A stretch of DNA of 38,411 bases from the NCBI GenBank assembly GCA_027483345.1, contig JAIXUV010000343.1, forward strand, positions 1 through 38,411, written 5' to 3'. The notes under the pieces are model-generated. The model saw nothing but the letters and a program-made list of their open reading frames with translations. It searched no databases and was not told the DNA's origin. The stretch is from Verrucomicrobiales bacterium. Its GTDB lineage: Bacteria; Verrucomicrobiota; Verrucomicrobiia; Limisphaerales; UBA9464. Of the stretch, positions 8,618-31,023 are shown piece after piece; the stretch's first letter is position 1; the number at the start of each line of letters is the position of its first letter. The translations under genes were made by a program, and so were the position numbers.

Positions 8618-8648
8618 CCGCAACCGGCATTGTCCTCGCGGCCTCCCC

Positions 8649-12202: not shown

Positions 12203-12233
12203 CGTGACGTCCCGGCAGCCCACCGACCGCCCC

Positions 12234-13127: not shown

Positions 13128-13160
13128 GCCCGGCCCGGCCCGAACCGGAGCGCCGCGCAC

Positions 13161-13613
13161 ATGCGCCTCCGCAACCTGCAGGCCCCCCGCGAAGGCGGCG
13201 CCGTCCTGCTGGAGGTCATCCTCGCCCTCATCCTCTTCGTCGCCGCCGCCGCCGTCGTCGGCTCCGCCCTCTCCTCCGCCGCCGACTCCATCGAACGCCT
13301 CCGGCTCGGTGTCCATGCCGACAACCTCGCCGCGTCCGTCGTCGCCGAACTGGAGATGGGCAACCGCTCCGCCGCGGTTCCCGGACCGGCGCCCTTCGAG
13401 GCGCCCTTCACCAACTGGACCTGGCAGATCGTTCCGCCGGCCGGCGACCTCCCCGGGGCCCCCTTCGAGATCATCGTCCGCCACGAGTCCGGCAGTCCCG
13501 TCCGTCGGCTCGCCCAGGTGATCCAACTGCCCGGCGGCTCCTTCTCCTCGACCAATTCGCCCGCGGAACCGGCCGACTCCACGATCCCCGACCCGATGGA
13601 GGGCACGCCGTGA
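13161..13613 (+). CDS. gspI: Minor pseudopilin GspI-like
   Basis: 150 residues. Leader MRLRNLQAPREGG, then AVLLEVILALILFVAAAAVVG with Glu18 at +5. The common GFTLLEV is changed to GAVLLEV, so mature residue 1 is Ala rather than Phe/Met. The rest (NLAASVVAELEMG, FTNWTWQIVPPAGD) agrees with GspI, a small tip pseudopilin that binds GspJ and GspK. The position between H and J supports the call. The stop overlaps the GTG start of gspJ. Confidence 0.75.
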   Translation: MRLRNLQAPREGGAVLLEVILALILFVAAAAVVGSALSSAADSIERLRLGVHADNLAASVVAELEMGNRSAAVPGPAPFEAPFTNWTWQIVPPAGDLPGAPFEIIVRHESGSPVRRLAQVIQLPGGSFSSTNSPAEPADSTIPDPMEGTP

Positions 13614-14410: not shown

Positions 14411-15939
14411 ACCGGATCAGCCGAAAGCCGGGCCCGCGGGCGTTCGTGCTCCTGGGCGTGCTCGTCGTGGTGATGCTCCTCTCGATGATCGCCCTCAGCC
14501 TGCTGTTCCGAATGCGCTCGGAGGAGACCGCCGGTTCCACCGGTTCCGGTTCCGAACAGGCCTGGGCGGCCGCCATGAGCGGCGTGCGGGAGGCGATGCG
14601 CATCGCCGCGGGAATCCGGCCCGGCGAACTCGATTGGCTCGACGCCCCGGAACGTTTCCGCGACCGGACCCTCTACGACGACGGCGCCGAGGAATGGCGT
14701 TGGACGGTCTATTCCGGGGACGCCGAGGGCGGCCTCCGCTTCGGCCTCACCGACGAGGCCGGCAAGGTGAACCTCAACTTCGCGCCGACCTCGCTGGTGA
14801 CACGGCTCCCCGCGATGAAGCCGCTGCTCTCCGACGCGTTGCTCGACTTCCTCGACAGCGACGACCTCCCACGTCCCGAAGGCGCGGAACAGGAGTATTA
14901 CGACGCCCTTCCCCGTCCCTACCGGATCCACAACGGCCCGCTCGCCACGCCCGAACAGCTGCTGCTCGTCCGCGGCTTCACCCCGTCCGTGGTGCTCGGC
15001 GAGGACGCCAACCAGAACTTCGTCCTCGATCCCAACGAGGACGACGGCGAGGAGAAGGATCCTCCCGACGACCAGGACGGACGCCTCAACCCGGGCCTGG
15101 CGCCGTTCATCACCGTCTTCTCCCACGAATCCAACCGCGACACCGCGGGTGGCCCGCGGATGCGCCTCAACACGACCAAGGCGGAGAACCTCGACACCAA
15201 CGGACTGGCCCCGGCGTTCGCGTCCTTCCTCGTCGAGTTGGCCGCCTCGGAAACCACCGTCGCCCATCCGGCCGAACTGCTCGATGCCACGCTGCGGCTC
15301 CGGGACAAGGAAGGCCGCGAAAGGGAAGTCCCCACCGGGGTCGGACGCGACACTCTGGCCGCCGTGCTGGACCGCTTCACCGCCGACGACGTGGAGGACC
15401 TCAAGGGTCTGGTGAACGTGAACACCGCGGGCGCCCAGGTCCTCCAGGCCGTTCCCGGAATCGACGGGGCGCTGGCTGAGATGATCGTCTCGACCCGCCG
15501 CAACCTCGCCGCCGACCGCCTGGCTTCGCTGGCTTGGCTGCACACGGAGAACCTCGTGGACGCCGCGAAGTTCCGGGAGATCGCCCCGTACCTGACCGTG
15601 CGTGGACGGCAGTTCTCGTTCCGCGTGGTCGGATTCGGGTCGAAGTCGGGTCGATACCGCGTCGTGGAGGCCGTCATCGACACCGACGCACCGTCCCCAA
15701 GGCTGCTTTATCTCCGGGAACTGACCCGCCTCGGCCCCCCGTTTCCGCTCGTTGCCGACCCGTCGGGCGAGGACCCCGGAACGAACTCCCCGCCGGCTTC
15801 CCGGACGACCACTCCCGGACCGCGTCCACGCCGACGCACGAAGGGTTTCCGTCGATTCCGAGGAAGCCTTGGAATAATCCCGCGACAACCGTCGTCGGGG
15901 GTTGGCGACACACACGCGGGCATGGCAGTCTTTGCCTGA
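14407..15939 (+). CDS. gspK: Minor pseudopilin GspK-like, with EF-hand-like loop
   Basis: 510 residues, larger than most GspK (~320). The N-terminal helix AFVLLGVLVVVMLLSMIALSL lacks Glu at +5 (Gly17), as is usual for GspK. GspK features: LTDEAGKVNLNF near 118, and helix-hairpin-helix-like VNVNTAGAQVLQAVPGI near 335-352. An insertion carries a perfect 12-residue EF-hand loop, DANQNFVLDPNE (Asp200, Asn202, Asn204, Asp208, Glu211), in an acidic segment, so calcium binding is likely. The last ~60 residues are basic and disordered-looking. GspK caps the pseudopilus tip and controls its length. The PilM/N-like gene follows 15 bases later. Confidence 0.85.
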   Translation: MNRISRKPGPRAFVLLGVLVVVMLLSMIALSLLFRMRSEETAGSTGSGSEQAWAAAMSGVREAMRIAAGIRPGELDWLDAPERFRDRTLYDDGAEEWRWTVYSGDAEGGLRFGLTDEAGKVNLNFAPTSLVTRLPAMKPLLSDALLDFLDSDDLPRPEGAEQEYYDALPRPYRIHNGPLATPEQLLLVRGFTPSVVLGEDANQNFVLDPNEDDGEEKDPPDDQDGRLNPGLAPFITVFSHESNRDTAGGPRMRLNTTKAENLDTNGLAPAFASFLVELAASETTVAHPAELLDATLRLRDKEGREREVPTGVGRDTLAAVLDRFTADDVEDLKGLVNVNTAGAQVLQAVPGIDGALAEMIVSTRRNLAADRLASLAWLHTENLVDAAKFREIAPYLTVRGRQFSFRVVGFGSKSGRYRVVEAVIDTDAPSPRLLYLRELTRLGPPFPLVADPSGEDPGTNSPPASRTTTPGPRPRRRTKGFRRFRGSLGIIPRQPSSGVGDTHAGMAVFA

Positions 15940-15954: not shown

Positions 15955-17610
15955 ATGGGCTTGAAGCTTCCCATCCAGATCGACCGTATTCGTGAACGCC
16001 TTCCGGGCCGCCGGAAGGCCGGCTCCGCGCCGCGCGGCTTGGCCGCGGTCACCGCGTTGGAGGTCGACGGGAACCGCCTGCGGATCGCCGAGGCGTCCCG
16101 CTCCGGCGGGGGCGGCCGCATCGACGGGATGCGCGTGGTCCCGCTCGAACTGCCCGCGGACGCGGACCGCTCCGACGCGGCGCTGCTTGGCGCGGCCGTC
16201 GGCAAGGCGCTGGCGAAGGCCAAGGTCCGCGGCGGCCCCGTGGTCATGGGCATCCCCAGGGCCAGCGTGATCCTCCGCACCGTGGTGGTGCCCGACACCG
16301 GCGCCGAGGGCACCATCGCCTCCCTCGTCCAGTTCCAGGTCGCCCGCGACCTACCCTTCCGCATCGACGAGGCGGTCGTGGACTTCCAAGTCCTCCGGCG
16401 TCTTCCCGCGAAGCCGGCCGCGGAAGCCGGTGGCGCCGCCCCGAACTCGGCCGATTCGGTGGACCGCGTCGAGGTGCTCGCGGCGGTGGCACGACGCGAT
16501 TCCATCACGTTCCACACCCAGCTCGCCGAGGCCGCCGGCATCCAGCTCGCCGCGTTGGGCTGGATCTCCCAGGCCAACGCCACCTGTCTCCGCATCGCCG
16601 CCCCTGCGGCACCCGGATCCACCCGCGCCGCCGTCGTGCTCCGTCCCGACGAGGTCGGCATCGAGGTGGTCGAGGACGGCGCCCTGGTCTTCAGCCGCGG
16701 CGTCCCCCTGGCGGCAGGCTCCGTCGACGACGAGGCCGCCTGGATCCGGACCGTGACCATCGAGGTGGTCCGCACGCTCCACGCCTTCGCGGGCAGTTCC
16801 GGACGTCCCGCGCCCTCGGCCGCCTTCGTCCTCGGTGGAACCGGCCGCGAGGCCGCCGTCGCCGCCCAACTCCGGGAACGGGTCGACTTCCCGGTGGACT
16901 GCCCCGACCTCGGCACGCGCCTCGGCCTCGGACCCGCCGACTCCGAGGCCGCCGCCGCGGGCTTCTCCGTGGCCGGACTCGCCTCCGGCGCCACCGACCC
17001 GGCCGGACTCGCCTTCGACTTCCTCAGCCCGAAGAAGCCGACGCCGCCGGTCGACACCCGCCGCCTCAAGATGCTCGCCGGCGCAGTCGCCGCTATCGCC
17101 GCGATCGGGCTCGTCCTCGGCATCCGCTCCACCCTCGTCAACCGCCGCCTCGCCGTCCTCACCCAGCTGCAGTCCGAGATCGTCGCCGCCGAAAAGAACC
17201 GGCCGACCTTCCGCCAGAAGCTCCAGCAGGCCGCCACCCTCAAGGCCTGGTCCGCCGAGAACCGCGAGTGGCTCGACCACTACGCCCACCTCAGCGCCAT
17301 CCTGCCGCCCAGCGAGGAAGTCTACCTCACCTCCGTCGCCTTCGGTCCCAACAACGCCATCCGCCTCGCCGCACAGGCCCGCAGCGGCGAGATCCTCGCC
17401 AAGCTCGACCGACAGCTCCGCGCGGCCGGCTACGACGTGAAGCCCCTCGCCATCACCCCGGGCGCCGACCGCAACGGCTACGGCTTCCGTACCACCGTCG
17501 AGCTCACCGTCCCCGCCAAGCTCCGGTTCGACCTCACGAAGCTTTCCCCGCCGCCCCGTCCCGCGGACGACGGCTCGCTCGACGCGCCGCGGAAGGGAGG
17601 TGCCCGGTGA
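15955..17610 (+). CDS. GspL-like assembly protein, fused PilM (actin-like) and PilN
   Basis: 551 residues. Residues ~28-350 resemble the actin-like ATPase fold of PilM/GspL: VTALEVDGNRLRIAEA, VVMGIPRASVILRTVVVP, LVQFQVARDLPF, and SAAFVLGGTGREAAVA in the phosphate-2 position. A single hydrophobic helix follows (~372-392, MLAGAVAAIAAIGLVLGIRS), then a coiled-coil-prone stretch (AVLTQLQSEIVAAEKNRPTF) and a ferredoxin-like periplasmic domain (VYLTSVAFGPNNAIRLAAQA), as in PilN. T4P systems keep PilM and PilN separate, while T2SS GspL fuses equivalent parts, so it is functionally GspL. It recruits GspE to the membrane. Its stop overlaps the start of the PilO-like gene. Confidence 0.8.
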   Translation: MGLKLPIQIDRIRERLPGRRKAGSAPRGLAAVTALEVDGNRLRIAEASRSGGGGRIDGMRVVPLELPADADRSDAALLGAAVGKALAKAKVRGGPVVMGIPRASVILRTVVVPDTGAEGTIASLVQFQVARDLPFRIDEAVVDFQVLRRLPAKPAAEAGGAAPNSADSVDRVEVLAAVARRDSITFHTQLAEAAGIQLAALGWISQANATCLRIAAPAAPGSTRAAVVLRPDEVGIEVVEDGALVFSRGVPLAAGSVDDEAAWIRTVTIEVVRTLHAFAGSSGRPAPSAAFVLGGTGREAAVAAQLRERVDFPVDCPDLGTRLGLGPADSEAAAAGFSVAGLASGATDPAGLAFDFLSPKKPTPPVDTRRLKMLAGAVAAIAAIGLVLGIRSTLVNRRLAVLTQLQSEIVAAEKNRPTFRQKLQQAATLKAWSAENREWLDHYAHLSAILPPSEEVYLTSVAFGPNNAIRLAAQARSGEILAKLDRQLRAAGYDVKPLAITPGADRNGYGFRTTVELTVPAKLRFDLTKLSPPPRPADDGSLDAPRKGGAR

Positions 17611-18608
17611 ACGAAAGAGAGAAGCGCCTCGCCCTCGCCGTCGGAGGCATCGTCGGCGCCATCGTCCTCATCCTGCTCGGCCGCGTCGTGTTCCTCCGCC
17701 CGATCCAGGACGTCGACCGCCGCATCGTCGCCGCACGCCTCAAGCTCGACGGCCTCGCCAAGGAACGGCGCGACTTCTTCGCCGCCGATGAGGCCGTGAA
17801 GGCCGTCGCCGCGCGGACCTTCTCGGACGACATCGACCAGGCCAGCGCGCGGTTCGGCGAGATGCTCACCCGCACCATCATCAACAGCGGCCTGCGCGAG
17901 TCGGACTTCAGCCGCCTCCCCACCGGTTCCCGGAAGCTCCGTGGCGCCCTTGAAACCGGTTGGGCCGTGCGCGGGGAAGGCCCGCTCGCCCAGGTCATCA
18001 GCCTCGTCTTCCTCCTCGACCGCGCCGCGCCGGTCCACCGCCTCGACGGCCTCACGCTCAGCGTCGGCGACAGCCCCGGCCGGGTCCGGGTCAGCTTCCG
18101 CTACCTCACCCTCGTCCCCTCCCCGTCGCCCGACGTCGAGCGGACCGAGTTGGAGTCGAAGTTCACCGCCGAAAGCCCGGAACGCCGCGCGTACGATCCG
18201 CTGGTCGCCCGCGACGTCCTCCGTCCCTACCTCCGGCGTCCGCCGCCCGCGCCGCCCGCCGGCCAACCGGCTCCTCCCGTCGCACCCGCACCGCCCGGTT
18301 CGCCGGGTCCCGAGACCTTCCGAGTCGTCTCCCTCTCCGAATGGGCCGGCGAACCTGAGATCCACGTCCGCGACCTCACCGCCCAGAAGACCGTCCGCTA
18401 CAAGGTCGGCGACACCATCGCCGGCGGCGTCATCGTCCAGGTGGACTACCGCCCCATGCCCACGCCCGGCCGCGAAGGGCTGCTCTCCTCGAGCCGCGTC
18501 GTCCTCCGCATCGGCGCCGAATACTGGGCCATCGAACGCGGCGGCACCTTCGCCGACCGCCACAAGCTCAAGCCCGAGGAACTGCCGCCCGGCCTCGCCA
18601 AGTCCTGA
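17607..18608 (+). CDS. PilO/GspM-like protein with a possible PilP/GspC-like C-terminal domain
   Basis: 333 residues from a GTG overlapping the upstream stop and preceded by GGGAGG at 17595-17600, which fixes the start. Residues ~8-28 are one membrane helix (LAVGGIVGAIVLILLGRVVF), followed by a helical segment with DVDRRIVAARLKLDGLAKE, then a ferredoxin-like PilO/GspM domain (LAQVISLVFLLDRAAPVHRL to VSFRYLTLV). A Pro/Ala-rich linker (~212-232) leads to a ~95-residue beta-rich domain (FRVVSLSEWAGEPEIHVRD, YKVGDTIAGGVIVQVDY, RIGAEYWAIERG). Its GD-containing pattern resembles the homology region of PilP/GspC, the part that contacts the secretin N0 domain. No separate gspC is present, so one protein may do both jobs; the C-terminal assignment is an inference. 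Confidence 0.7.
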   Translation: MNEREKRLALAVGGIVGAIVLILLGRVVFLRPIQDVDRRIVAARLKLDGLAKERRDFFAADEAVKAVAARTFSDDIDQASARFGEMLTRTIINSGLRESDFSRLPTGSRKLRGALETGWAVRGEGPLAQVISLVFLLDRAAPVHRLDGLTLSVGDSPGRVRVSFRYLTLVPSPSPDVERTELESKFTAESPERRAYDPLVARDVLRPYLRRPPPAPPAGQPAPPVAPAPPGSPGPETFRVVSLSEWAGEPEIHVRDLTAQKTVRYKVGDTIAGGVIVQVDYRPMPTPGREGLLSSSRVVLRIGAEYWAIERGGTFADRHKLKPEELPPGLAKS

Positions 18609-18652: not shown

Positions 18653-21600
18653 ATGAGTCCCACACGAATCCACGGTCTCGCCCTGGCGCTGCTCCTCGCC
18701 GCCGGCCCCGCCGCCCGCGCCCAGGAGGTCGTCGTCCAGGCGACCGCCCCCGCCGCGGCGACCGCTCCGACCAACGGCCCTGCCGCCGCGACGGCCAGCC
18801 GCAACATCCGCTTCCAGTTCGACGGCATCCCCTACGCCGACGTCATCGAACGGTTCGCCCAGATGTCCGGCAAACCCGTCGTCGGCGAGGTCGCCATCCC
18901 GGGCTCCATCACCTTCAACGACCCCAGCGCGTACAGCTACCCCGAGGCCTTCGACACGCTGAACGTCATCCTCTCGATGAAGGGCCAGATGCTCGTCGAG
19001 GAAGGCAACTTCCTCCGCGTGGTCCCGTTCCGCGAACTCCCGCAGACCCCTCTCCGCATCCTCCGCGGCGGCGACAAGGCCGATGGCGTCCGCCCCGGCG
19101 AGGTCGTCACGGTCGTGCTCGAGCTCAAGAACCTGGACGCCGCTGAGATCTCCCCCGCCGTCACCAACCTCCTCTCCTCCGCCGGCTCCGTCGCCCCGCT
19201 CTCCCGTGGACGCGGCCTCATCCTCACCGACCGTCTCAGCAACATCCAACGGATCCGCGCCCTCATCGGCTCCGTGGACAACGAGACCGCCGCGGAACGG
19301 CAGATGAAGACCTACACCCTCCTCCACGCCTCGGGCGCGGTGGTGGCGGACCTCATCAACCGGACCTTCGGCATCTCCACCGCGCCGAAGCGCACCCAGT
19401 TCAACCCGCAGACCAAGCAGCTCGACGTCCTCCCGGCGGACCCCAGCGACTACGTCACCGCCGTCTACGACGACGCCTCCAGGACGCTCGTCCTCTTCGG
19501 CCCCCGCGAACGCCTCGGCCTCGCCGACGAACTCATCTCGCGCTTCGAGGACGGCAACGCCGGCGCCGGCGACGTCCGCATCTACACGCCGCAGGTGATC
19601 AAGGCCGAGGAGTTGGCGGCCATGATCCGCCAGGCCATCCCCGGGGTCGCCATGCCCAACGAGTCCGGCTCCGCCGCCGCCACCAAGGCCCGCGTCATCG
19701 CCGAGAAGGACTCCAACCGACTCATCGTCGCCGCACCCCTCGCCGGCCAGGCCGACCAGATCGAGGCCCTCATCAACCGCCTCGACAAACCCGTCCACGG
19801 CTCCGGCGGGACCACCTTCCAGAACGCCAACAAGGTCCAGGCGGTCCAGATCACACGCGTCTTCCGCACCCGCACCGCCGAGGCCGCCAACGTCGCCAAG
19901 ATCCTCACCGAGGCGCTCTCCCGCACCCTGCCCGGCGGACAGAAGGTCCCCACCGCCTCCGTCGCCGTCGAACCCGGCTCCCAGAGCATCGTCGTCACCG
20001 GCTCCCCCGGCGACGTCCAGACCGCCACCGACATCCTCTCCCAGCTCGAGACCGGCTCCACCTCGCCGCGTCCCCAGCAGACCCGCTTCCTCGAGCTCGG
20101 CAGCGTCTCCGAGGCCAAGCGCCTCGTGCCCCTCGTCGAGCAGATCTACCGCAGCCAGGTCGCCGACGGCGCCTCGGGCGGCACCGCCCACGCCAAGATC
20201 CTCGCCGAACCCGACACCTCGCGGATCATCGTCACCGCCTCCGAGGAACACCTCACCCGCATCGAGGAGATCATCCGGAACCTGCGCGCGGACAAGTCGA
20301 AGCCCCAGGAACGATCCCTGCACATCGTCTCACTGAAGAACGCCCGCCTCGAATCCGCCTTCACCAGCATCAACAGCCTCATCACCGAACGCATGGGCGA
20401 CCGCCGGTTCCAGGACCAGCCCAAGCCCTCGGTCGTCCCCGACAACGCCAACAACCGCCTCCTCGTCACCGCCACCGACGAGCAGCGCAAGGAGATCGAG
20501 GCCATCGTCGCCGTCGTCGACGTGGCCCCCGAGAAGGCCCGCCGCGAGATGGCGGTGATCCCCGTCCACGCCAAGTCCCCCTCCGAGCTCATCGCCCTCG
20601 CCGGACAGCTCATGGCCCAGCTCGGCGAACAGCCGGGCAACCCCCAGCTCGAGCCCAAGCTCATCCCCGACGCCTCGGGCAAGCAGATCATCGTCCTCGC
20701 CGCCGAGGCCGACATCCAACGGGTCCGCACGCTCGTCCAGCAACTCGACACCGCCACCACCACCGCCGTCAGTCGCCAGTTCCGCGGCGTCGAACTCCAC
20801 TCCCGCACCGCCGCCGAGCTCACCCCGCTCGTCCAGCAGCTCTACCTCGAACAGATCCGCGGGAACACCGAGCCCGCCGGCGGTCCCGCCACGCTGCTCG
20901 CCGACCCGAAGAACAACCGCATCATGGTCAGCGGCGCCGAACGCGAGATCGCCCGCGTCGAGGGCATCATCCGTCAGCTCGATCCCGCAGGACAGAAGGG
21001 CGCCCGCGAGGAGACCCGCGTCATCCGCCTCAAGGCCGCCGTCGCCGCCGACATCTCCGGCCTCGTCGAGAAGAGCCTCAGCACCCAGCCCGGCGCCGTG
21101 AAGGTCCTCGTCGACACCCGCTCCAACAGCCTCGTCATCACCGGCGAATCCTCCGCCGTCGAGGCCGCCGCGAAGATCATCCGCGAACTCGACCTGCCGT
21201 CCGACGTCCAGCCGCGCGAGATGAAGGTGATGGAACTCAAGCAGGCCGAGGCCAACGCGCTCTCCACGCTCGCCGCCTCCATCGCCACCGACCTGCTCAA
21301 GAGCCAGCGCGGCACCGAATACGTCCCGCAGACCCGGATCTTACCCGACCCCGCCGCCAACCGCGTCGTCCTCTCCGGCCCGCGCGAGGAGCTCGCCGTC
21401 TACACCCAGGTCGTCGAACGCCTCGACCAGGCCCCCGAGGCCGCCGGCGGCGCCCGCGTCTTCCGCCTCGTCAACGCCGACGCCGCCCAGGTCGTCGGCG
21501 TTGTCTCCAACGCGATGGTCAAGTTCGACGCCCGCAACCAGCCCATCCGCCGAGCCACCGTCTCCCTCGACCGCGAATCCAACAGCATCGTCGTCTCCGG

Positions 21601-24600
21601 CTCCCGCCAGGATCTCAAGGACGCCGAGGGTATCATCCAACGCCTCGACAACGAGGGCATCGACCCGGCGGCCGGCGGCAGCGGCTCCGGCACTGTCGCC
21701 GCCGCAGGATCCTCCAAGAACCGCCAGCTCAGGATGGTCGACGTCAACGGCGATCCCGACACCCTCTCCCAGCTGGCCACCCGCGTCTTCGCCGCCCAGA
21801 ACGCCGGACGGACCATCACCAACCTCGTCTCGATCACCCCGGAGCCCAACGGCCGCCGCCTCATCGTCCTCGCCCCGGAGTCCGTCCTGCCGCAGGTCCA
21901 GACCGTCATCTCCGCCCTCGACTCCAAGCCCGAACAGGCCCAGCGCGAACTCCACACCATCGAGCCGCGCGGCTCCCGCGGCACTGAGATCCTGCCCGTG
22001 GTCAACCGCATCTACGGCGAACAGACCCAGGGCCGCACCACCAAGCCCGCCTCCCTCTACACCGACCCCTCCGGCGACCGCATCATGGTCTTCGGCACCC
22101 GCGACCAGGCCGCCGCCGTCCGCCAGATCGTCGAGACGCTCGCCTCCGACACCCCGGAGGCCCGCACCAACCGCATCTTCGACCTCGGCAAGCCCACCGA
22201 GGCCCAGCGCCTCGTCCCCGTCATCCAGCAGCTCTACCGCGACCAGTCCGCCGGCGACACCGGTGACGGACCCGCCGACGCCCAGATCCTTTCCGACGGC
22301 CGCTCGGGCCGCGTCATCGCCACGGGACGACCCTCCCACCTCGACCGCATCGCCTCCATCGTCGCCAGCCTCCAGGCGTCCGGTTCCACCGCCAACGCCC
22401 GAGAAACCCGCACCTTCGACGTCGGCTCCGCCGCCGATGTCCAACGCCTCCAGCCGCTCATCCAGCAGCTCTACACCGACCAGTGGAAGGAACGCGCCGA
22501 CAGCGACCCCGCCGACGCCCAGATCCTCCCCGACCCCCGCGCCGGCCGCATCATCGTCACCGGCCGCCCCGACCACCTGCAGAAGATCGAGTCCATCCTC
22601 CAGCAGCTCGGCGCCGGCCCCGCCAAGCCGCAGGCCGACGGACGCGAGGTGCGCATCCTCGACCTCGCCACCGCCAGCGCCAACGACCTCGCCGCCACCG
22701 TCCGCTCCCTCTACCTCGACCAGGCCAAAACCCGCTTCGGCGCCACCCCGCCCGACACCTCCATCACCCCGGACACCGGCGGCAACCGCCTCATCGTCGT
22801 CGGCGAGACCAACGAGGTCGCCCAGGTCGAGGACCTCGTCCGCAAGCTCGATAAGGTCTCCGCCCAGAGCGCCACCGCCCGCGTCTTCAAGATCCGCTCC
22901 GCCGAACCCGAGAAGGTCGCCGAGGTCCTCTCCTCCGCCCTCGTCCGCTACGACGCCTTCGGCCGTCCGCAGAAGCGCACCACCGTCTCCGTCGACGCCA
23001 AGAGCCGCACTCTCATCGTCACCGGCGACCCCAAGGAGCTTCAGTCCGTCTCCACCATCATCGAACAGCTCGACACCTCCCTCGGCTCCCGACCGGACCG
23101 TCGGATGAAGGTCGTCGGACTCCGCCAGGGCCGCGCCGCCGAGATCTCCTCCCGCGTCCGCCAGCTCTACAACGACCAGGCCCGCAACCAACCGGAACTC
23201 GCCCTCTCCGACCTGCTCATCCTCGACGACACCACCAGCAACCAGCTCATCCTCGCCGGCAGCGACGCCCAGATCACCCTCGTCGAAGGCATCCTCGAAC
23301 AGCTCCAGAAGACCGCCGCCACCCGGGGCGAACGCGAGACCCGCCCGCTCGCCGTCGGACAGCCCGACGAGATCGCCCGCGTGGTCCCGCTGGTCCAGCA
23401 GCTCTACACCGAACGCTGGAAGACCAAGGACCCCGCCGACCCCGCCGACGCCCAGATCATCGCCGACCCCGCCAACGGCCGCCTGCTGGTGACCGGCCTG
23501 CCCGCCCACATCGCCGAGATCGAGTCGATCCTCGCCCTCGTCCGCAATCCGGCCGCCGACTCCGCCGCCCGCGACACCCGCGTGATCAACCTCGGCACCG
23601 CGCAGGCCGCGGACGTCGCCGCCACCGTCCGATCCCTCTACCAGGAGCAGATCCGCTCCGAATCCCTGCCCCCCGCCGAACAGGCCGTCATCCGCCCCGA
23701 CGCCGCCGGCAACCGCCTCGTCGTCACCGGCCGCACCAACGACCTCGACCGCATCGCCGCGCTCGTCCGCACGCTGGACTCCGCCAACGAACGCTCCGGC
23801 GGCTCCCGCGTCTTCCGCCTCACCAACGCCGAACCCCAGCAGATCGCCGCCGCGCTCTCCAACTCCCTCGCACGCCTCGATCCCTTCGGACGTCTCGTCC
23901 CCCGCGTGACCATCGGCGTCGATGCCCAGTCCCGCACCGTCGTCGTTTCCGGCGAGCCGAAGGACCTCCAGTCCGCCGAGCAGATCGTCCAGCAGCTCGA
24001 CGCCACCGGCACCCGCGAGGCCCGCGACCTCCACCTCCTTCCCATCCGCACCGGCACCGCCTCCGAGGCCCTTACCCGCCTCCGCACCCTCGCCAACGAC
24101 CGCCTCCGCGGCGCCGGCGGCGGCCAGGAGCCGGTGTTCATCGCGGACGACTCCAACGGCCGCATCCTCGTCACCGCCACGGATTCCCAGTGGAAGGCCG
24201 TCGAGGAGATCGCCGGGAAGCTGTTCGACGGCGACGGCTCCGCCGGACGCCAGGTCCGCCCGCTCGCCCTGTCGCACATCAACGCCGCGACCATCACGCC
24301 CCTGATCGCCCAGCTGTTCGCCCGCGAGATGGCCGCCACCGACCCCGCCCAACGCCTCATCCTCACCCCGACCCCCGACGACCGCGCGCTTCTCGTCGAC
24401 GCCAGCCCCGCCGTCTTCGAGAGGATCGGCGCCGTGGTGAAGACGGTCGACGTCGCCGAAACCGGCGGCTCGTCCGTGCTCCAGACCGTCCTGCTCAAGA
24501 AGACTGTCGCCGACACCGTCGCCGAGTCCGTGAACCGCGCACTCGCCGCCAAGGGCACCGACAGCCGCCTGCGCCGCGTCACCATCACCCCGGTCACCGG

Positions 24601-27600
24601 CGCCAACGCGCTCCTCCTCAACGGCCCCGGCGAGTCGGTCCAGGAGATCCTCAAGCTGGTGAAGGAACTCGACGCCGAAAGCGCCACCGGCGAGGTCGAG
24701 GTCCGCATCTACAAGCTCTCCAGCGCCGACGCCAAGGAGGTCCAACCCGTCCTCTCCCAGCTGCTCGCCAACGTGAGCGGACGCCTCGAGCGCCGCGGCC
24801 TCGGCGGCGGCCGCTTCCAGCCCACCATCGCCATCGACCCCCGCTCGAACAGCCTCCTCATCACCGCCTCGGCGATCCACTTCAAGCTCGTCGAGCAGCT
24901 GCTCCCCACCCTCGACAAGGCCCCGGACCGCTCCGACCGCGACGTCCAGTTCGTGTGGCTCAAGAACGGCCGCGCCACCGACATCGCCGGCAAGGTCGAG
25001 GCGGTCTACGGGGAACGCCCCCGCAACGAACGCCCCGTCGTCGAGACCGACACCGAGGCCAACACCCTCACCGTCATCGCCCGGCGCGCCGACATGCCCC
25101 AGATCCAGGACCTCATCCAGCGCCTCGACGCCTCGGCGCAGGACAACACGATCCAGGTCCGCATGGTGACCGTCGACGACGTCCCGGTGGACCAGATGGT
25201 CGGCATGCTCACCAACATCTACCCGCAGATGCATGGCGGTGCGATGAAGCTGGTCGACCGCATCCCCGCCGGGGCCGCCGGTCGCACCAACGCCCCGGGA
25301 AGCGCCCCCGAGGTCGTCGTCGCCCTCGACCGCGCCGCCAACGCCCTCATCCTCGCCGGACCTTCCGCCGAGCTCGACCGCATCAACCGTATGGTGTTCG
25401 ACCTCTCGTGGAACGCGATGACCGGCGAATCGGAACTCCGCATCGTCCCCCTCCGTGAAGCCGACCCGGTCGTGCTCGCCCGCACCCTCAACAACCTGTT
25501 CCGTCCCGAATCCGCCCGCGGCGAGGGTCCCCAGCCCCAGCCGAATCCCCAGCAGCAGGCGGCACAGGCCACCCGGACTCCCCGGCTCACCGTCGTCCCC
25601 GAGCCCCGCACCCGCAGCCTCGTCGTGCGCGCCTCGGTCAAGGACTTCGCGGTCGTCGAGGGCCTCGTGAAGCAGCTCGACAGCGCCGGCCCGACCTCGG
25701 CGCTCACCTCGCGCCTCGTCGCCCTCACCAACACCCCGGCCGCCAAGATCACCCCGCTGGTCCAGCAGATGGTCCAGCAGCTCAACGTGCAGCACCCCGG
25801 TGATCCCCTCAGCGTCATCCCCTACGAACGCACCCGCAGCCTGCTCGTGATCGCCCGCGAACCCATGATCGCGCAGGTGGAGCAGATGATCCGCTCGCTC
25901 GACGGCCCGGCCGCCGACGCCGAAGCCGAGGTCCGGGTCTTCACCCTCAAGAACTCGAGCGCCACCCAGATCACCGCCGTCCTCCAGGGACTGCTGCGGC
26001 CCGGCAACGCCGGCGAGACCACGCCCGAGGCCCGCGAACTCCAGGAACAGGTCCGCCGGCTGAGGATCCGCGGCGACAAGGGCGCGGCCGCCGACCTCGA
26101 CCTCGACAAGCCCATCAAGATCACCCCCGACCCCGCCGGCGGAAACCGCCTGCTCGTCACCTCGACCTCCCGCAACCTCGACGCCCTCGCCACGGTGGTC
26201 GAGCTGCTCGACCGCGCCGGCAGCGCCGAGGCCGCAGACGTGAACTTCGTCGTGCTGCTCCACGCCGACGCCAACACCGCCGCGCAGACGCTCAACACGA
26301 TCTTCGCCCAGGGCATCCGCCTCGGCCTCCGCTCCGGCGGCGTCGGCCAGCCCGAGTCCGGCACCGGCAAGGGACTCGTCTCCCCCCTCGCCGTCACCGC
26401 GGACACCCGGATGAACGCCCTCATCCTCTCCGGACGCCGCGACTCCATCGAACTCGCCCAACGCCTGCTCCGCGACATGGACAAGCCCTGGGACAACGCC
26501 GTCACCGAGGTGAAGCTCTTCCGCCTCAAGCACGCCACGCCCAGCAGGGTCCTGCCGATGCTCCAGGCGGTCTTCGCCGAAGGCCCCGCGGTCCCCGGCG
26601 CCGAGGGCCTCACCGCCTTCGTCACCCGCCTCCAGACCCGGCGCGACGGCGGCAAGCCGGTCTCCACCGAACAGGCCAAGGTCCGCCAGGCCCTCACCCT
26701 CCAGGCCGACGACACCACGGGCACCCTCATCGCCGCCGCCCGCTCCGACGCCCTGCCCCTGATCGAGGAGGTGCTCAACCAGCTCGACATCCCCGACGCC
26801 TCCGGACTCAGCACCGTCCGCATCTACCCCCTGAAGCACGCCGACGCCGCGACGCTCCAGAAGATCGTCACCGACCTCCATTCCGGGCCCCGCAGCGCCA
26901 ACACCCGGCCCGCCGACCGCCCCACGCTGACCCTCGACGACCGCTCGAACTCGCTCATCGTCGCCGGCAACGAGAAGGCCTTCGCCATCGTCGACAGCCT
27001 GCTCGCCCAGCTCGACCGCGAGATGCCCCTAGAGATGCGCGACGTGCGGATCCTCCCGCTGGCCCACGCCGAGGCCACCCAGCTCGCCGCCACCCTCCAA
27101 CGGCTCATGGACCAGCGGGTCGCCCGCCAGGGCAGCCTCGGCCGCGGACAGGCCGAGTCCCTCCGCGTGCTCATCCTTCCGGAGCCGCGCTCCAACAGCC
27201 TCCTCGTCGGCGGCGGCAAGGACGCCTTCGAACTCGTCGAGTCCCTCGCCCAACGCCTCGACCAGGCGGAGCCCGGCCTCTCCGGCGGCGTCCGCATCGT
27301 CCCCCTCGAGTACGCCGATTCGCGGATCCTCTCCGCCTCGCTCAACCAGCTCTTCACCCAACGCTACCAGGCCGCCACCTCGCCCGAACTCCAGCGCCAG
27401 AAGCCCGTCATCCTCCCCGACGCCCGCGTCAACGCCCTGCTCGTCTCCGCCGGCAAGGCCGACAACGAGGTCATCGACGACCTGCTCAAGAAGCTCGACC
27501 GCAAGCTCGACAACCCCTCGCTCATGCTCACGGTCATCCCGCTGAAGCACAACGACGCCGCCAAGGTCGCCGCCACGCTCGAAGGCGTCTTCACCGCGCG

Positions 27601-30469
27601 CCAACAGGCCCGCACCCTCCCCGGGCAGACCCCATCCCCCACCGACCGCGTCGAGATCCAGACCGACTCGCTCAACAACTCGCTGATCGTCTCCTCCAAC
27701 CGGGAGAACCTCGACCTCGTCAACGAGCTGCTCGCCCGGATCGACGTCGAGCCCACGGTCGCCGAGGGCGTGCTCGAGACCTTCGTGCTCAAGCACGCCG
27801 ACGCCCAACGCGTGGCCACCATGCTGAAGTCGCTCGTCCAACAGGGCATGTACCGGCCCGGCCGCTCCGCCGTCCAGGTCCCCGGCCAGGCCAACCGCGA
27901 CGCCATGGCCATCGCCGTCGACACCCGCAGCAACACCCTCATGGTCTCCGCGAGCCCCGACAACCTCGGGCTCATCAAGGAGATCCTCGCCCGCGTCGAC
28001 ACCGTGGACTTCATGTCCGCCACCGACCTCAAGATCTACAAGCTCGACCACGCCCGCGCCTCCAACCTCGCCGGCGTCCTCAACCAGTACTTCCAGGCCC
28101 GGCGCACGGCCGACGCCGCCTCCCTGAACGCGCCCGAACGCAGCATGCCGGTCGCCGTCATCCCCGACACCCGCCTCAACGCCATCCTCGCCACAGGCTC
28201 CAAGGAGGCCATCGACACCCTCGACCGCATCGTCCCGCAGCTCGACGCCGAGGACCGCCTCGCCCAGCTCAACTTCCGCGTGTTCCCGCTCAAGCAGGCG
28301 ACCGCTATCCGCATGCAGGACACCCTGCAGAAGCTGTTCGCCAACCGCCCGCCCCGCGCCCGCGGCGAACCCACCGACCCCATCACCGTCGTCGCCGACG
28401 CCTGGGTCAACGCCATCATCGTCGGCGCCGTGGTCGAGGACATGTCCATGGTCGACTCGCTCATCACCCGGCTCGACACCACCCAGGCCGAGCTCGGCCT
28501 CACCGTCGAGGTGATCGCCCTCGCCAAGGCGGACGCCCGGCGCGTCGCCCAGACCGTCCAGGGACTCTTCCGCGAAGGCACCCAGGGCGGCCCCATCCCC
28601 ATCGTCGTCAGCGCCGACGAACGGGTGAACGCGCTCGTCGTCTCCGCCGGCGCCACCGACCTCAAGCGCATCCGCGACGTCGTCTCCAAGCTGGACACCG
28701 ACCAGACCGCCCGCGTCAGCGAGATCCGTGTTCTCCCGCTCAAGTACGCCCGCGCCGAGACCATGGCCCAGGTACTCAACACCTCCCTCAACACCAAGCC
28801 CACCCCGCTCTCCGAACTCAGCCCCAACGCGCAGTCCGTGCTCCAGTTCGTCACCCGCACCGAGGACGGACGCGAGCTCGTCACCGCCGCCCTCAAGGAG
28901 GCGATTCTCATCACGCCGGATTCCCGCATGAACGCCCTCGTGGTGTCGGGACCGGTCGACTACATGGGCCTGCTCGAGCAGATCGTCTCCCGCCTCGACA
29001 ACAGCTCGCCGCGCGAGGCCCGCATCAAGGTGTTCTCCCTCCGCAACGCCGACGCCCAGCAGACCGCCCAGCTGCTCCTCTCCATGTTCCGCATGCAGGC
29101 CGGCGGCGCCTCCGGCCCGAACCAGCGCACCATCCAGTACACGCTGATGCGTCCCGCACAGGACGGCACCGTCTCCGCCGGCGCCTCCGCCGTCATCGGA
29201 TCCGAGGAGCAGTCCGCCCTCACCGTCAGCGTCGATCCCCGCACCAACACGCTGCTCGTCGGCGGCACCGAACACTACGTCGGCCTCGTCGAGCAGATCA
29301 TCGAGACGCTCGACTCCTCCGAGGCCCTCGAACGCCGCACCGAGGTCTACCGACTCAAGAACGCCCAGGCGCCCGACGTCGGCTCCGCCATCCGCAACTT
29401 CCTCGACCAGGAGCGCCAGCGCGTCACCCAGGTCCTCGGCACCGATGCCGTCGGCACCGCCCAGCGCCTGCTCGAACGCGAGGTCGCCATCGTCCCCGAG
29501 CAGGTCAGCAACACCCTCCTCCTCTCCGCCAGCCCGAGGTACTTCGACCAGATCCACGAGATCATCGAGGAACTCGACCAGCCCCAGTCCCAGGTGCTGA
29601 TCCAGGTCATGCTCGCCGAGGTCACCCTCGACTCGACCCGCGACCTCGGCTTCGAGTGGAGCTTCGCCAAGAACGTCGGCGGCGGATGGAACGTCGGCAC
29701 CGGCACCGACTTCGCCCTCCCCACCGCCCTCAACAACTTCGGCGGCTACTCCGCCCTGGTCACCGGCAACAACGTCACCTTCCTCCTCCGCGCCCTCGAG
29801 AACGAAGGCCGCGTCGAGGTCCTCAGCCGCCCGCAGATCCTCACCTCCGACAACAAGGCGGCCTCGATCAACATCGGCCAGCGCGTCCCGCTCATCACCG
29901 GATCCCAGCTCACCCCGCAGGGCGGCACGGTCAACACCTTCGACTACCGCGACGTCGGCGTGAACCTCACCGTCACCCCGCGCATCACCGGCGACGGCTT
30001 CGTCAAGATCGACGTCGGCGCCACCAACAGCTCCCTCTCCAGCTCCTCGGTCGAGATCAACGAGCGCGCCACCGTCCCCATCATCAACGAACGCCGCGCC
30101 TCCACCACCGTCACCGTCCAGAGCGGCCAGACCGTCGTCATCGGCGGCCTCATCGGCACCGTCGACGACGTCCGCAACAAGAAGACCCCCTTCCTCGGCG
30201 ACATCCCCGGCATCGGCTTCTTCTTCCGCAGCACCTCCAAGAAGTCCGAACGTCGCGAACTGCTCATCATGCTCACCCCGCAGGTGCTCACCTCCAACCA
30301 CGACCAGCCCGCGCGCATCGTCGACATCGGACGCCACTCCCGCGAACAGCTCGACCCCTCCATCCTGCGTGAGACCAAGCAGAACGACCCCATGAAGAAC
30401 CGGCTTCTCGACCCCCTCTATCCGGACGGCCGCAAGTCCGGACGGACCAACGCGCCGGCGAAGCTCTGA
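18653..30469 (+). CDS. gspD: Giant type II secretion secretin (GspD-like) with about 43 N1-type repeats
   Basis: 3938 residues in one open frame; ordinary GspD is ~650-750. Order: signal peptide (1-~23, LALALLLAAGPAARAQ); linker; N0-like domain (~50-130, IRFQFDGIPYADVIERFAQM, then FLRVVPFRE); about 43 tandem N1-type (Secretin_N, PF03958-like) units from ~150 to ~3643; one secretin channel domain (~3645-3890, QVLIQVMLAEVTLDSTRDLG, VEVLSRPQILTSDNKAA, VGVNLTVTPRI, VVIGGLIGTVDD, KTPFLGDIPGIGFFF, ELLIMLTPQVL); and a ~55-residue basic tail. Each unit has a strand-helix half (IRVLPLKHADA type) and a second half ending like ILPDARVNALLVSA then a helix and LD. The frame is intact with uniform GC-rich codon use and the repeats are well diverged, arguing against assembly collapse or decay. 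It forms the outer-membrane channel, with the repeats as a very long periplasmic vestibule (inference). The next lipoprotein start overlaps its stop. Confidence 0.95.
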   Translation: MSPTRIHGLALALLLAAGPAARAQEVVVQATAPAAATAPTNGPAAATASRNIRFQFDGIPYADVIERFAQMSGKPVVGEVAIPGSITFNDPSAYSYPEAFDTLNVILSMKGQMLVEEGNFLRVVPFRELPQTPLRILRGGDKADGVRPGEVVTVVLELKNLDAAEISPAVTNLLSSAGSVAPLSRGRGLILTDRLSNIQRIRALIGSVDNETAAERQMKTYTLLHASGAVVADLINRTFGISTAPKRTQFNPQTKQLDVLPADPSDYVTAVYDDASRTLVLFGPRERLGLADELISRFEDGNAGAGDVRIYTPQVIKAEELAAMIRQAIPGVAMPNESGSAAATKARVIAEKDSNRLIVAAPLAGQADQIEALINRLDKPVHGSGGTTFQNANKVQAVQITRVFRTRTAEAANVAKILTEALSRTLPGGQKVPTASVAVEPGSQSIVVTGSPGDVQTATDILSQLETGSTSPRPQQTRFLELGSVSEAKRLVPLVEQIYRSQVADGASGGTAHAKILAEPDTSRIIVTASEEHLTRIEEIIRNLRADKSKPQERSLHIVSLKNARLESAFTSINSLITERMGDRRFQDQPKPSVVPDNANNRLLVTATDEQRKEIEAIVAVVDVAPEKARREMAVIPVHAKSPSELIALAGQLMAQLGEQPGNPQLEPKLIPDASGKQIIVLAAEADIQRVRTLVQQLDTATTTAVSRQFRGVELHSRTAAELTPLVQQLYLEQIRGNTEPAGGPATLLADPKNNRIMVSGAEREIARVEGIIRQLDPAGQKGAREETRVIRLKAAVAADISGLVEKSLSTQPGAVKVLVDTRSNSLVITGESSAVEAAAKIIRELDLPSDVQPREMKVMELKQAEANALSTLAASIATDLLKSQRGTEYVPQTRILPDPAANRVVLSGPREELAVYTQVVERLDQAPEAAGGARVFRLVNADAAQVVGVVSNAMVKFDARNQPIRRATVSLDRESNSIVVSGSRQDLKDAEGIIQRLDNEGIDPAAGGSGSGTVAAAGSSKNRQLRMVDVNGDPDTLSQLATRVFAAQNAGRTITNLVSITPEPNGRRLIVLAPESVLPQVQTVISALDSKPEQAQRELHTIEPRGSRGTEILPVVNRIYGEQTQGRTTKPASLYTDPSGDRIMVFGTRDQAAAVRQIVETLASDTPEARTNRIFDLGKPTEAQRLVPVIQQLYRDQSAGDTGDGPADAQILSDGRSGRVIATGRPSHLDRIASIVASLQASGSTANARETRTFDVGSAADVQRLQPLIQQLYTDQWKERADSDPADAQILPDPRAGRIIVTGRPDHLQKIESILQQLGAGPAKPQADGREVRILDLATASANDLAATVRSLYLDQAKTRFGATPPDTSITPDTGGNRLIVVGETNEVAQVEDLVRKLDKVSAQSATARVFKIRSAEPEKVAEVLSSALVRYDAFGRPQKRTTVSVDAKSRTLIVTGDPKELQSVSTIIEQLDTSLGSRPDRRMKVVGLRQGRAAEISSRVRQLYNDQARNQPELALSDLLILDDTTSNQLILAGSDAQITLVEGILEQLQKTAATRGERETRPLAVGQPDEIARVVPLVQQLYTERWKTKDPADPADAQIIADPANGRLLVTGLPAHIAEIESILALVRNPAADSAARDTRVINLGTAQAADVAATVRSLYQEQIRSESLPPAEQAVIRPDAAGNRLVVTGRTNDLDRIAALVRTLDSANERSGGSRVFRLTNAEPQQIAAALSNSLARLDPFGRLVPRVTIGVDAQSRTVVVSGEPKDLQSAEQIVQQLDATGTREARDLHLLPIRTGTASEALTRLRTLANDRLRGAGGGQEPVFIADDSNGRILVTATDSQWKAVEEIAGKLFDGDGSAGRQVRPLALSHINAATITPLIAQLFAREMAATDPAQRLILTPTPDDRALLVDASPAVFERIGAVVKTVDVAETGGSSVLQTVLLKKTVADTVAESVNRALAAKGTDSRLRRVTITPVTGANALLLNGPGESVQEILKLVKELDAESATGEVEVRIYKLSSADAKEVQPVLSQLLANVSGRLERRGLGGGRFQPTIAIDPRSNSLLITASAIHFKLVEQLLPTLDKAPDRSDRDVQFVWLKNGRATDIAGKVEAVYGERPRNERPVVETDTEANTLTVIARRADMPQIQDLIQRLDASAQDNTIQVRMVTVDDVPVDQMVGMLTNIYPQMHGGAMKLVDRIPAGAAGRTNAPGSAPEVVVALDRAANALILAGPSAELDRINRMVFDLSWNAMTGESELRIVPLREADPVVLARTLNNLFRPESARGEGPQPQPNPQQQAAQATRTPRLTVVPEPRTRSLVVRASVKDFAVVEGLVKQLDSAGPTSALTSRLVALTNTPAAKITPLVQQMVQQLNVQHPGDPLSVIPYERTRSLLVIAREPMIAQVEQMIRSLDGPAADAEAEVRVFTLKNSSATQITAVLQGLLRPGNAGETTPEARELQEQVRRLRIRGDKGAAADLDLDKPIKITPDPAGGNRLLVTSTSRNLDALATVVELLDRAGSAEAADVNFVVLLHADANTAAQTLNTIFAQGIRLGLRSGGVGQPESGTGKGLVSPLAVTADTRMNALILSGRRDSIELAQRLLRDMDKPWDNAVTEVKLFRLKHATPSRVLPMLQAVFAEGPAVPGAEGLTAFVTRLQTRRDGGKPVSTEQAKVRQALTLQADDTTGTLIAAARSDALPLIEEVLNQLDIPDASGLSTVRIYPLKHADAATLQKIVTDLHSGPRSANTRPADRPTLTLDDRSNSLIVAGNEKAFAIVDSLLAQLDREMPLEMRDVRILPLAHAEATQLAATLQRLMDQRVARQGSLGRGQAESLRVLILPEPRSNSLLVGGGKDAFELVESLAQRLDQAEPGLSGGVRIVPLEYADSRILSASLNQLFTQRYQAATSPELQRQKPVILPDARVNALLVSAGKADNEVIDDLLKKLDRKLDNPSLMLTVIPLKHNDAAKVAATLEGVFTARQQARTLPGQTPSPTDRVEIQTDSLNNSLIVSSNRENLDLVNELLARIDVEPTVAEGVLETFVLKHADAQRVATMLKSLVQQGMYRPGRSAVQVPGQANRDAMAIAVDTRSNTLMVSASPDNLGLIKEILARVDTVDFMSATDLKIYKLDHARASNLAGVLNQYFQARRTADAASLNAPERSMPVAVIPDTRLNAILATGSKEAIDTLDRIVPQLDAEDRLAQLNFRVFPLKQATAIRMQDTLQKLFANRPPRARGEPTDPITVVADAWVNAIIVGAVVEDMSMVDSLITRLDTTQAELGLTVEVIALAKADARRVAQTVQGLFREGTQGGPIPIVVSADERVNALVVSAGATDLKRIRDVVSKLDTDQTARVSEIRVLPLKYARAETMAQVLNTSLNTKPTPLSELSPNAQSVLQFVTRTEDGRELVTAALKEAILITPDSRMNALVVSGPVDYMGLLEQIVSRLDNSSPREARIKVFSLRNADAQQTAQLLLSMFRMQAGGASGPNQRTIQYTLMRPAQDGTVSAGASAVIGSEEQSALTVSVDPRTNTLLVGGTEHYVGLVEQIIETLDSSEALERRTEVYRLKNAQAPDVGSAIRNFLDQERQRVTQVLGTDAVGTAQRLLEREVAIVPEQVSNTLLLSASPRYFDQIHEIIEELDQPQSQVLIQVMLAEVTLDSTRDLGFEWSFAKNVGGGWNVGTGTDFALPTALNNFGGYSALVTGNNVTFLLRALENEGRVEVLSRPQILTSDNKAASINIGQRVPLITGSQLTPQGGTVNTFDYRDVGVNLTVTPRITGDGFVKIDVGATNSSLSSSSVEINERATVPIINERRASTTVTVQSGQTVVIGGLIGTVDDVRNKKTPFLGDIPGIGFFFRSTSKKSERRELLIMLTPQVLTSNHDQPARIVDIGRHSREQLDPSILRETKQNDPMKNRLLDPLYPDGRKSGRTNAPAKL
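19100..29580 (+). repeat. Protein-level tandem array of ~43 secretin N1-type units inside gspD
   Basis: By eye I counted 43 units (plus or minus two), averaging ~81 residues, from EVVTVVLELKNLDAAEI to IHEIIEELD. Two consensus classes are visible. Units in the N-terminal half often read ETRxxxLG...LVPLVQQLY..Q followed by ADAQILPDPxxGRIIVTG. Units in the C-terminal half read VRIxPLKHADA...LF followed by DxRxNALLVSA. Several C-terminal units have loops of 30-50 residues between halves, for example near 26590-26700 and 28795-28900. Copies are diverged at DNA level, so this is an old protein repeat and not a recent DNA duplication. Confidence 0.9.
22400..24235 (+). repeat. Four-unit super-repeat duplicated in tandem within gspD
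   Basis: Block A (22400-23332) and block B (23333-24235) have four units each in matching order. First units: FDVGSAADVQRLQPLIQQLY and LAVGQPDEIARVVPLVQQLY. Second: LDLATASANDLAATVRSLY and INLGTAQAADVAATVRSLY. Third: ARVFKIRSAEPEKVAEVLSS with YDAFGRPQKR, and SRVFRLTNAEPQQIAAALSN with LDPFGRLVPR. Fourth: RQGRAAEISSRVRQLYND and RTGTASEALTRLRTLAND. The spacing is ~311 residues. This points to growth of the array by block duplication. Confidence 0.75.
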
Positions 30470-31023
30470 TGCGCCTTCACCCGCCTCCATCGTCTCCCCG
30501 TCGCCCCGGCTCGGGCCGGGCCTTCCGGCTCATCGGGCTCATCGGCCTGGCCGGACTCGTCGCCGGCCCGGTCGGCTGCGCGTCCAAGGGCGGCTCGACC
30601 GGCACGTCCCGGAACGCCTCCGGGATCACCGAGCTCAACCTCCTCACCCTGCCGGTCGCCCTCAACCTCGACTCCGCTCCCGGCGCCGACGGCATCGCGG
30701 TGAAGATCTACGCCAGCGCCAATGCCTCGCCGAAGCCCGTTGCCATCCGTTCCGGCGAGATCGAGATCCTCCTGTTCGACGGACTGCTTGCCAAGGACAC
30801 CACCCGCATGCCCGAGCCGTCGCGCAGCTGGAAGCTGACCGCCAAGGAACTCCGCCCGTGGGAGGTCACCGCCATGGTCGGCACCGGCTACCAGCTCACC
30901 CTCCGCTGGGATTCCTTCAAGCCGGCCCAGGACCGCGTCACCGTCGTCGCCCGCATGCCCCTCGGCGAAGGACGCTTCCTCTACAGCAGCCCGGGCGTGA
31001 TCTCCTGCTCGTCGGAACGCTGA
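30469..31023 (+). CDS. Small lipoprotein coupled to the giant secretin; candidate pilotin or accessory factor
   Basis: 184 residues. The ATG overlaps the secretin stop (TGATG), so it is translationally coupled. A long basic N-region is followed by a hydrophobic core (LIGLIGLAGLVAGPVGC) with Cys near residue 37; Pro at -3 makes the lipobox imperfect, but GC followed by ASKGGSTG is typical of a lipoprotein. The mature part has an all-beta look: ITELNLLTLPVALNLDS, GIAVKIYASANASPKPVAI, EIEILLFDG, GTGYQLTLRWDSF. I do not recognise a family. Pilotins are small lipoproteins that target secretins to the outer membrane. The location suggests such a role, but there is no sequence match to known pilotins. 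It closes the secretion locus. Confidence 0.7.
   Translation: MRLHPPPSSPRRPGSGRAFRLIGLIGLAGLVAGPVGCASKGGSTGTSRNASGITELNLLTLPVALNLDSAPGADGIAVKIYASANASPKPVAIRSGEIEILLFDGLLAKDTTRMPEPSRSWKLTAKELRPWEVTAMVGTGYQLTLRWDSFKPAQDRVTVVARMPLGEGRFLYSSPGVISCSSER

Follow-up and report, generated by a model that had tools for sequence, protein, structure and literature searches.

Secretins are machines known from textbooks, with an architecture that hardly varies, and in the ring of an ordinary GspD each N domain forms one storey. PulD has a total length of 20 nm, and GspC connects its GspD N0 domain to the platform (PMC6882859). The isolated N domain of XcpQ assembles as a hexamer of dimers (PMC5646246). The extreme among the secretins of the papers cited here is PilQ of Thermus, which is called exceptionally long and has six N rings (PMC5745081). 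Its length is about 35 nm, and the periplasm that holds it measures about 70 nm; the six rings span most of this wide space (PMC4463427, PMC5745081).

Among the matches listed for the open-access PMC literature, with preprints outside its scope, we found no description of a secretin like the one reported here. Term searches found no mention of secretins or secretion in a genomic survey of Phycisphaerae (PMC11266412), and none of "secretin", secretion or GspD in a paper on a giant protein of the PVC group (PMC12057145). A survey of PVC outer membranes gives Kuenenia secretins without sizes, as far as its available text goes (PMC3422733).

We analyzed a stretch of 38,411 nucleotides, here called the window, from a Verrucomicrobiales bacterium (contig JAIXUV010000343.1 of assembly GCA_027483345.1). 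A preliminary description, made from the letters alone, had pointed to one very long secretin gene in it. Judged by its sequence, the product is clearly a GspD, yet it has 14 times the usual number of N1-type modules, and in the literature covered this combination is new.

The giant secretin and its operon

The gene lies at positions 18653..30469 of the plus strand, on which the operon genes and the lipoprotein gene described below also lie. It starts with ATG and encodes 3,938 aa in a single uninterrupted frame, the intact 11.8-kb frame that the preliminary description had reported. Its codon-position GC (0.69/0.46/0.95) is that of typical coding DNA in the window. In 200 first-order (dinucleotide) model sequences, of the length of the giant frame and read in three frames each, the longest open stretch had a median of 764 and a maximum of 1,690 codons. 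Therefore, a frame of 3,938 codons is beyond chance even at the GC content of the window. Residues 1 to 23 (18653..18721) fit the signal peptide proposed earlier, here of the Sec type, with a hydrophobic core and an AxA-type site read from the sequence and its hydropathy.

The signal peptide is followed by a predicted N0 domain (residues 62 to 123; 18836..19021). The Pfam match is weak (PF21305, E 5e-4, 20.3 bits, under the cut-off of 27), and a match at E<=0.01 is found in 29 of the 36 members of the N-terminal alignment. The top Foldseek matches are PulD and XcpQ, and residues 62 to 212, approximately, match crystal structures of GspD N0-N1 (5ngi with E 2e-10, 4e9j, 5mp2 and 3ezj). What had been described as an N0-like start is thus supported as a GspD-type N0. 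Next comes an array of N1-type (Secretin_N) units of beta-alpha-beta-beta-alpha topology, at residues 154 to 3643 (19112..29581). Pfam PF03958 marks 43 stretches in the protein. A profile grown from the giant itself likewise gives 43 units, an extra match with E 1 in the signal-peptide region being left out of the count. The earlier estimate of about 43 N1-type domains was therefore accurate. A broader profile finds 43 units in the window protein and exactly 3 in each of six out of six ordinary GspDs, so the increase, announced as more than ten-fold, is 14-fold. We read the KH-domain Pfam matches in the protein as fold-level cross-hits to the KH-like N1 units. The C terminus carries the one normal secretin domain described earlier (PF00263, found once at residues 3714 to 3879; 29792..30289; 170.8 bits, cut-off 27.5), and residues 3525 to 3881 match cryo-EM chains of GspD (5wq7, E 2e-46; 6hcg, E 5e-46).

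The NCBIfam scores of the whole protein pass the GspD, PilQ and YscC cut-offs together, because the repeats add up. The two ends were therefore rescored alone, each piece by itself scoring below the whole-protein GspD cut-off of 351. The N-terminal 379 residues align with positions 2 to 332 of the 600-position GspD profile at 106.5 bits (PilQ, 32.9), and the C-terminal 580 residues align with positions 196 to 595 at 330 bits (PilQ, 210; YscC, 175). GspD is thus the best-scoring secretin class by profile, and PilQ, the type IV pilus secretin, was rejected on its lower score at both ends. This collinearity shows that about 40 additional N1-type units separate an ordinary GspD start of the N0-N1-N2-N3 kind from an ordinary GspD end, which consists of a last N domain and the secretin domain. 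Since it has 43 units instead of about three, we class it as a GspD variant rather than an ordinary member. We modelled two pieces, N0 to unit 4 and units 33 to 38, as single chains with AlphaFold, which gave pLDDT values of 74.7 and 70.6 and pTM values of 0.37 and 0.43.

Upstream of the giant lie genes for the GspE ATPase (8025..10349; TIGR02533), GspF (10360..11553), the major pseudopilin GspG (11621..12202; TIGR01710), a GspH-like pseudopilin (12204..13127), a GspI-like minor pseudopilin (13161..13613; TIGR01707 with E 2e-4), a GspJ frame (13001..14410; weak match, true start probably further downstream), the minor pseudopilin GspK (14407..15939), a GspL/PilM-like protein (15955..17610) and a GspM-like inner-membrane protein (17607..18608). 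E and G pass NCBIfam cut-offs, and E, F, G, H, K and L (as PilM_2) pass those of Pfam; I and J stay below. The GspM-like protein gave no convincing profile match and is assigned by position and anatomy; it has a proline-rich linker and an extra C-terminal domain. The preliminary description had called the T2SS operon complete-looking. This stands for E, F, G, H, I-like, J, K, L/PilM-like and M-like components, but GspC was not found. A whole-genome search of this draft genome with the GspC profile PF11356 gave no match; of 14 named control genomes searched in this way, two, those of E. coli and Caulobacter, had one. The GspM-like protein, whose extra C-terminal domain is conserved, could stand in for the missing GspC. 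A GspC-like (HR) identity of this domain, suspected from its sequence, is not claimed, because a PDB profile search and Pfam gave nothing for it. Two phosphodiester glycosidase (NAGPA) genes (445-1773 and 5489-7453) lie upstream of the operon, with small genes between them, one of which is pilin-like (3448-4134).

Directly after the giant, with a start that overlaps the secretin stop, a small lipoprotein is encoded (30469..31023) that we regard as a candidate pilotin. Its lipobox was read from the sequence; it has no Pfam, NCBIfam or known-pilotin match, and its best PDB match (E 0.11) is not convincing. A matching lipoprotein follows the giant in 17/17 giant loci of the same taxonomic order (a comparison that left out L015), and L and M matches lie upstream in 13 of the 17. 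Two loci, L012 and L019, cover little more than 1 kb upstream of the giant. L014, from the same genus as these two, has no L or M match in 6.7 kb upstream, and L008 has none in 5.3 kb, with GspE downstream instead. In Phycisphaerae, L109, L110 and L113 have weak K or L matches upstream of the giant. The lipoprotein profile matches 94 of 134 sources. The 40 misses are seven loci of this genome with other secretins (L002-L007 and L106), the six ordinary GspD loci, each with 146 to 504 bases of downstream DNA, six intermediates, and 21 giant loci, most of these giant loci being from Phycisphaerae. The Verrucomicrobiota giant loci without a match are L042, L069 and L075.

The genome has seven secretin matches, the giant included, and ordinary-length secretins accompany giants in 23/23 genomes checked. 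Its second T2SS has a split secretin (L106, contig G000:C137, 665-3258, minus strand), in which N0 and two Secretin_N domains form one protein of 444 aa and the secretin part forms another of 410 aa, both beginning with a signal-peptide-like stretch. Secretin frames of about 400 to 460 aa are found repeatedly among the order's genomes, in many of them. The prepilin N-methylation motif (PF07963) has 82 matches over many contigs of this genome, and these form a large set of pilin-like proteins that are possible clients.

Relatives in two phyla and the conservation of the units

Secretins are present in 59/59 genomes (the window's own and 58 relatives), among which frames of about 3,600 to 4,300 aa recur across the genus and family. 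The stop-to-stop frames of 18 giant relatives measure 3,635 to 4,311 aa (L015 is cut at its 5' end), and these proteins together with the window giant have 38 to 47 units each. At E<=1e-80, the giant type occurs in 76 of 243 genomes of the order, each at least 80% complete, and the other 167 had no match there. Frames of at least 2,400 aa hold 59 of the 78 matches and frames of at least 3,500 aa hold 47, with a maximum of 5,155 aa; 19 rows are under 2,400 aa, and several of those viewed are cut by contig ends. Single-frame Verrucomicrobiota secretins over 2,000 residues, which the preliminary description had proposed to look for, are thus numerous, and its concern that close relatives might be of ordinary length proved unfounded. 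In L053 and L064 the array is interrupted by a frame change or stop.

The order includes genomes labelled Limisphaerales and Verrucomicrobia subdivision 3 (L052, L063). Among 288 genomes sampled from the phylum, the sole match was the window's own genome; the listed part of this sample lies outside the order. The named hits among the best 80 matches are Verrucomicrobiota of various labels and Phycisphaerae or other Planctomycetota. Seven public MAG records (L026, L029, L034, L035, L040, L046 and L050) are labelled Akkermansia muciniphila, Klebsiella pneumoniae or Proteobacteria; these labels look wrong, and the gene belongs to the Verrucomicrobiota order.

A two-phylum profile matches 121 of 198 genomes at E<=1e-60 in the class of G539 (labelled Phycisphaerales). 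The 144 rows comprise 54 of at least 2,300 aa, 19 of 1,500 to 1,850 aa, 4 of 1,090 to 1,499 aa, 61 of 600 to 1,089 aa and 6 shorter ones. The longest Phycisphaerae protein has 6,169 aa, and up to 63 units occur. In a sample of Planctomycetota, 64 of 244 genomes match, with 68 rows: 7 over 4,000 aa, 9 of 1,100 to 1,450 aa and 52 shorter. Several giants lie on large contigs, among them the 3.9-Mb record CP070772, whose title calls it a chromosome (4,808 aa), and others of 3.8 Mb (4,856 aa), 3.9 Mb (4,557 aa) and 3.4 Mb (4,494 aa).

Unit counts by one profile in 50 loci gave 3 in six ordinary GspDs, 12 to 15 in seven proteins and 20 to 63 in 37. These 50 are the 57 loci with an uncut 5' end minus L110 and L111, which are duplicates, and five interrupted or split arrays (L053, L064, L087, L091 and L097). 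The last three, from related Phycisphaerae, encode the giant as two frames, the first with 13 to 15 units and the second, which has a signal-peptide-like start, with 23 to 24 units and the secretin domain. These two-frame loci suggest that a giant array need not be one chain. At two loci with intermediates of about 1,700 aa and 12 to 15 units (L115 and L119), another N1-repeat frame lies just upstream.

A tree built from the C-terminal region places the Verrucomicrobiota giants among those of Phycisphaerae, and four rows with 37 to 46 units group with rows of 12 to 15 units. The tree is a quick one, without bootstraps; 33 of its 106 inner branches are open, and long branches meet, both between L119 and L120 and within the 3-unit rows. 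We rely on it for the placement of the Verrucomicrobiota giants and draw no count of origins from it. Both transfer from a Phycisphaerae-like donor and loss elsewhere in Verrucomicrobiota would fit.

We then compared the arrays unit by unit. Reciprocal best hits pair 43/43 units with each of three same-genus relatives (L010, L022 and L013), although L010 is almost identical to the window protein and adds little independent evidence. In four other genera, 39/43 units pair with each of L023, L009, L025 and L017; the numbers are 38 for L014, 38 for L012, and 32 for L008, which is from another family. The pairs are mostly collinear, and some cross among the paralogous units 14 to 22, more so in L008. 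Each unit thus has an identity of its own. Most length differences between the genera compared are explained by presence, absence or doubling of a four-unit block with paralogous neighbours, units 19 to 22 (23342..24223). The paralogous units have diverged from one another, while orthologous units keep a median identity of 55 to 58% between genera of the family, close to the 57 to 63% of the C-terminal secretin region.

The linkers between units have a median of 8 residues with a 5-95% range of 7 to 11 (516 links in 11 giants), compared with a median of 7 for the 12 links of 6 ordinary GspD proteins. Unit boundaries were drawn out to the ends of the profile, and this makes the lengths somewhat more even. 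Such near-constant linkers, about as long as in ordinary GspD, argue that the units pack in the same way and against a beads-on-a-string arrangement. Against six same-genus relatives, dN/dS was 0.025 to 0.354 in all computable regions, with dS saturated or undefined in several comparisons, above all with L013. Constraint on units 1 to 3 and 33 to 43 is similar to that on the secretin domain, and the middle units 13 to 32 evolve faster, with values up to 0.354. The array is under purifying selection. For a six-unit segment (33 to 38), 92 of 107 sources, a number that includes duplicates, give an alignment that covers at least 90% of the segment, with 25 to 47% identity in Phycisphaerae and other Planctomycetota; this part of the array is therefore older than the split of the two lineages or than a transfer between them. 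Thus, the giant arrangement is conserved and selected in one Verrucomicrobiota order and has relatives in Phycisphaerae.

A possible ring stack and competing explanations

It is near certain that the gene encodes a real giant GspD-type secretin, neither a misassembly nor a freak. We suggest, with a probability of about 0.5, that it is a GspD whose N1 ring module has been amplified to give stacked rings that form a long periplasmic tube of roughly 100 nm or more. By analogy with ordinary GspD, the giant protomers would assemble into a ring, and every N1-type unit would be one storey in a stack of about 44 rings on the periplasmic side of the pore. The six N rings of Thermus PilQ, which cross most of a wide periplasm, are a precedent. 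A few nm per ring would yield a tube of roughly 100 nm or more; 43 storeys at an estimated 2.5 to 4 nm come to over 100 nm. At the inner membrane, the N0 domain would contact the L/M-like assembly platform. At the other end, the C-terminal barrel would lie in the outer membrane, and the lipoprotein encoded downstream, as a candidate pilotin, would assist it. A long closed conduit would then lead the pseudopilus or a substrate across a periplasm that is very wide or invaginated at that place, and the number of modules would set the channel length. Because the cell also has ordinary secretins, its envelope cannot be uniformly 100 nm wide, and the tube would be confined to wide or infolded envelope sites. 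It is plausible from the domain count that 43 N domains imply a different machine geometry, as had been proposed, and the channel may be several times longer than usual.

Several observations speak against such a stack. The AlphaFold models are of single chains with middling confidence and do not give the relative placement of domains. A search of the genome found no GspC, which in PulD joins N0 to the platform. The fast evolution of units 13 to 32, the unit pairs that are not all strictly ordered and a gene order that is not universal (L008, L014) weigh in the same direction. Simple stacking is also not the sole option, since the isolated XcpQ N domain forms a hexamer of dimers.

In the main rival to a ring stack, the array would be folded or shaped like a basket and would serve to hold or sort. 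The protein would again be a real giant GspD, with extra units that fold back, coil or spread as arms instead of stacking straight; they may form a periplasmic basket that holds or sorts substrates or anchors the pore to the cell wall and the platform. We consider this possible, though on the unlikely side. A straight stack would exceed the 20- to 70-nm spans reported for described systems (PMC4463427, PMC6882859), and N domains can assemble as dimers (PMC5646246). The ordinary-length secretins of the same cell, the possible clients among the 82 motif matches, and middle units that vary faster than both array ends also fit a basket. However, the linker length is about as invariant as between ordinary GspD N domains, and the units keep their identity and, mostly, their order across genera.

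Non-adaptive growth of the array, in which recombination multiplied units that were tolerated because the pore was undisturbed, appears improbable. It would agree with unit numbers of 12 to 63 in relatives and with length differences that come mainly from one block with paralogous neighbours. It was already weakened by the selection test, with low dN/dS in every computable region, and it sits poorly with paralogous units that have diverged while their orthologues stay alike and with giants that persist across many genera and two phyla. We give slightly less credit still to cutting of the array after export, which would leave a normal-sized secretin and N1 modules as separate periplasmic proteins. 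The three two-frame Phycisphaerae loci and the split secretin of the second T2SS point that way, but the intact members seen keep the whole array in one frame. An assembly artefact (a collapsed or expanded repeat, or a chimera) can be practically dismissed: the window contig comes from a draft genome of 402 contigs, probably a metagenome bin, and a few related MAG loci (L053, L064) have interrupted frames, but similar lengths and unit orders recur in other assemblies, giants lie on Phycisphaerae contigs of 1.7 to 3.9 Mb, and the units are too diverged at the protein level to be assembly duplicates. The misassembly that the preliminary description had considered is therefore not needed to explain the gene.

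To return to the ring stack, its wider form posits a class of envelope machine whose ring modules, by their number (3, 12 to 15, or 20 to 63), encode how long the protein-conducting tube is. The tube would reach 100 nm or more and would allow some Verrucomicrobiota and Phycisphaerae to secrete across a periplasm that is expanded or invaginated. We advance this wider form tentatively. If true, the tube would be longer than any secretin channel that we found described. The series from 3 through 12 to 15 to 63 modules makes it testable whether the number of N rings sets channel length and matches envelope width. A 100-nm tube between the inner and outer membranes would be a molecular ruler for that space. 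It would bear on the dispute about the compartment-like cell plan of the PVC group, because it would measure the expanded space. A later view reads the paryphoplasm, a ribosome-free outer compartment, as an expanded periplasm. It was reported in strain Ellin514 of subdivision 3, where it was described as lying inside the cytoplasmic membrane (PMC2647929).

Comparison with known secretins

The giant resembles GspD, PulD and XcpQ in its signal peptide, N0, N1-type domains, secretin domain and T2SS operon, in the profile collinearity at both ends, and in having its best PDB matches among them by sequence and fold. It differs from them in having 43 N1-type units rather than three, 3,938 aa rather than about 700, and no GspC found. 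The ordinary Phycisphaerae GspDs (L122-L126 and L133) are found with the giants' C-terminal profile and adjoin the giants in the tree, whereas they have 3 units in frames of 674 to 779 aa. PilQ of Thermus thermophilus has extra N rings that span a wide periplasm, a feature that the giant would share. PilQ has six N rings (N0-N5) in 757 aa and serves a type IV pilus and DNA-uptake system, whereas the giant has about 44 N domains and sits in a T2SS operon.
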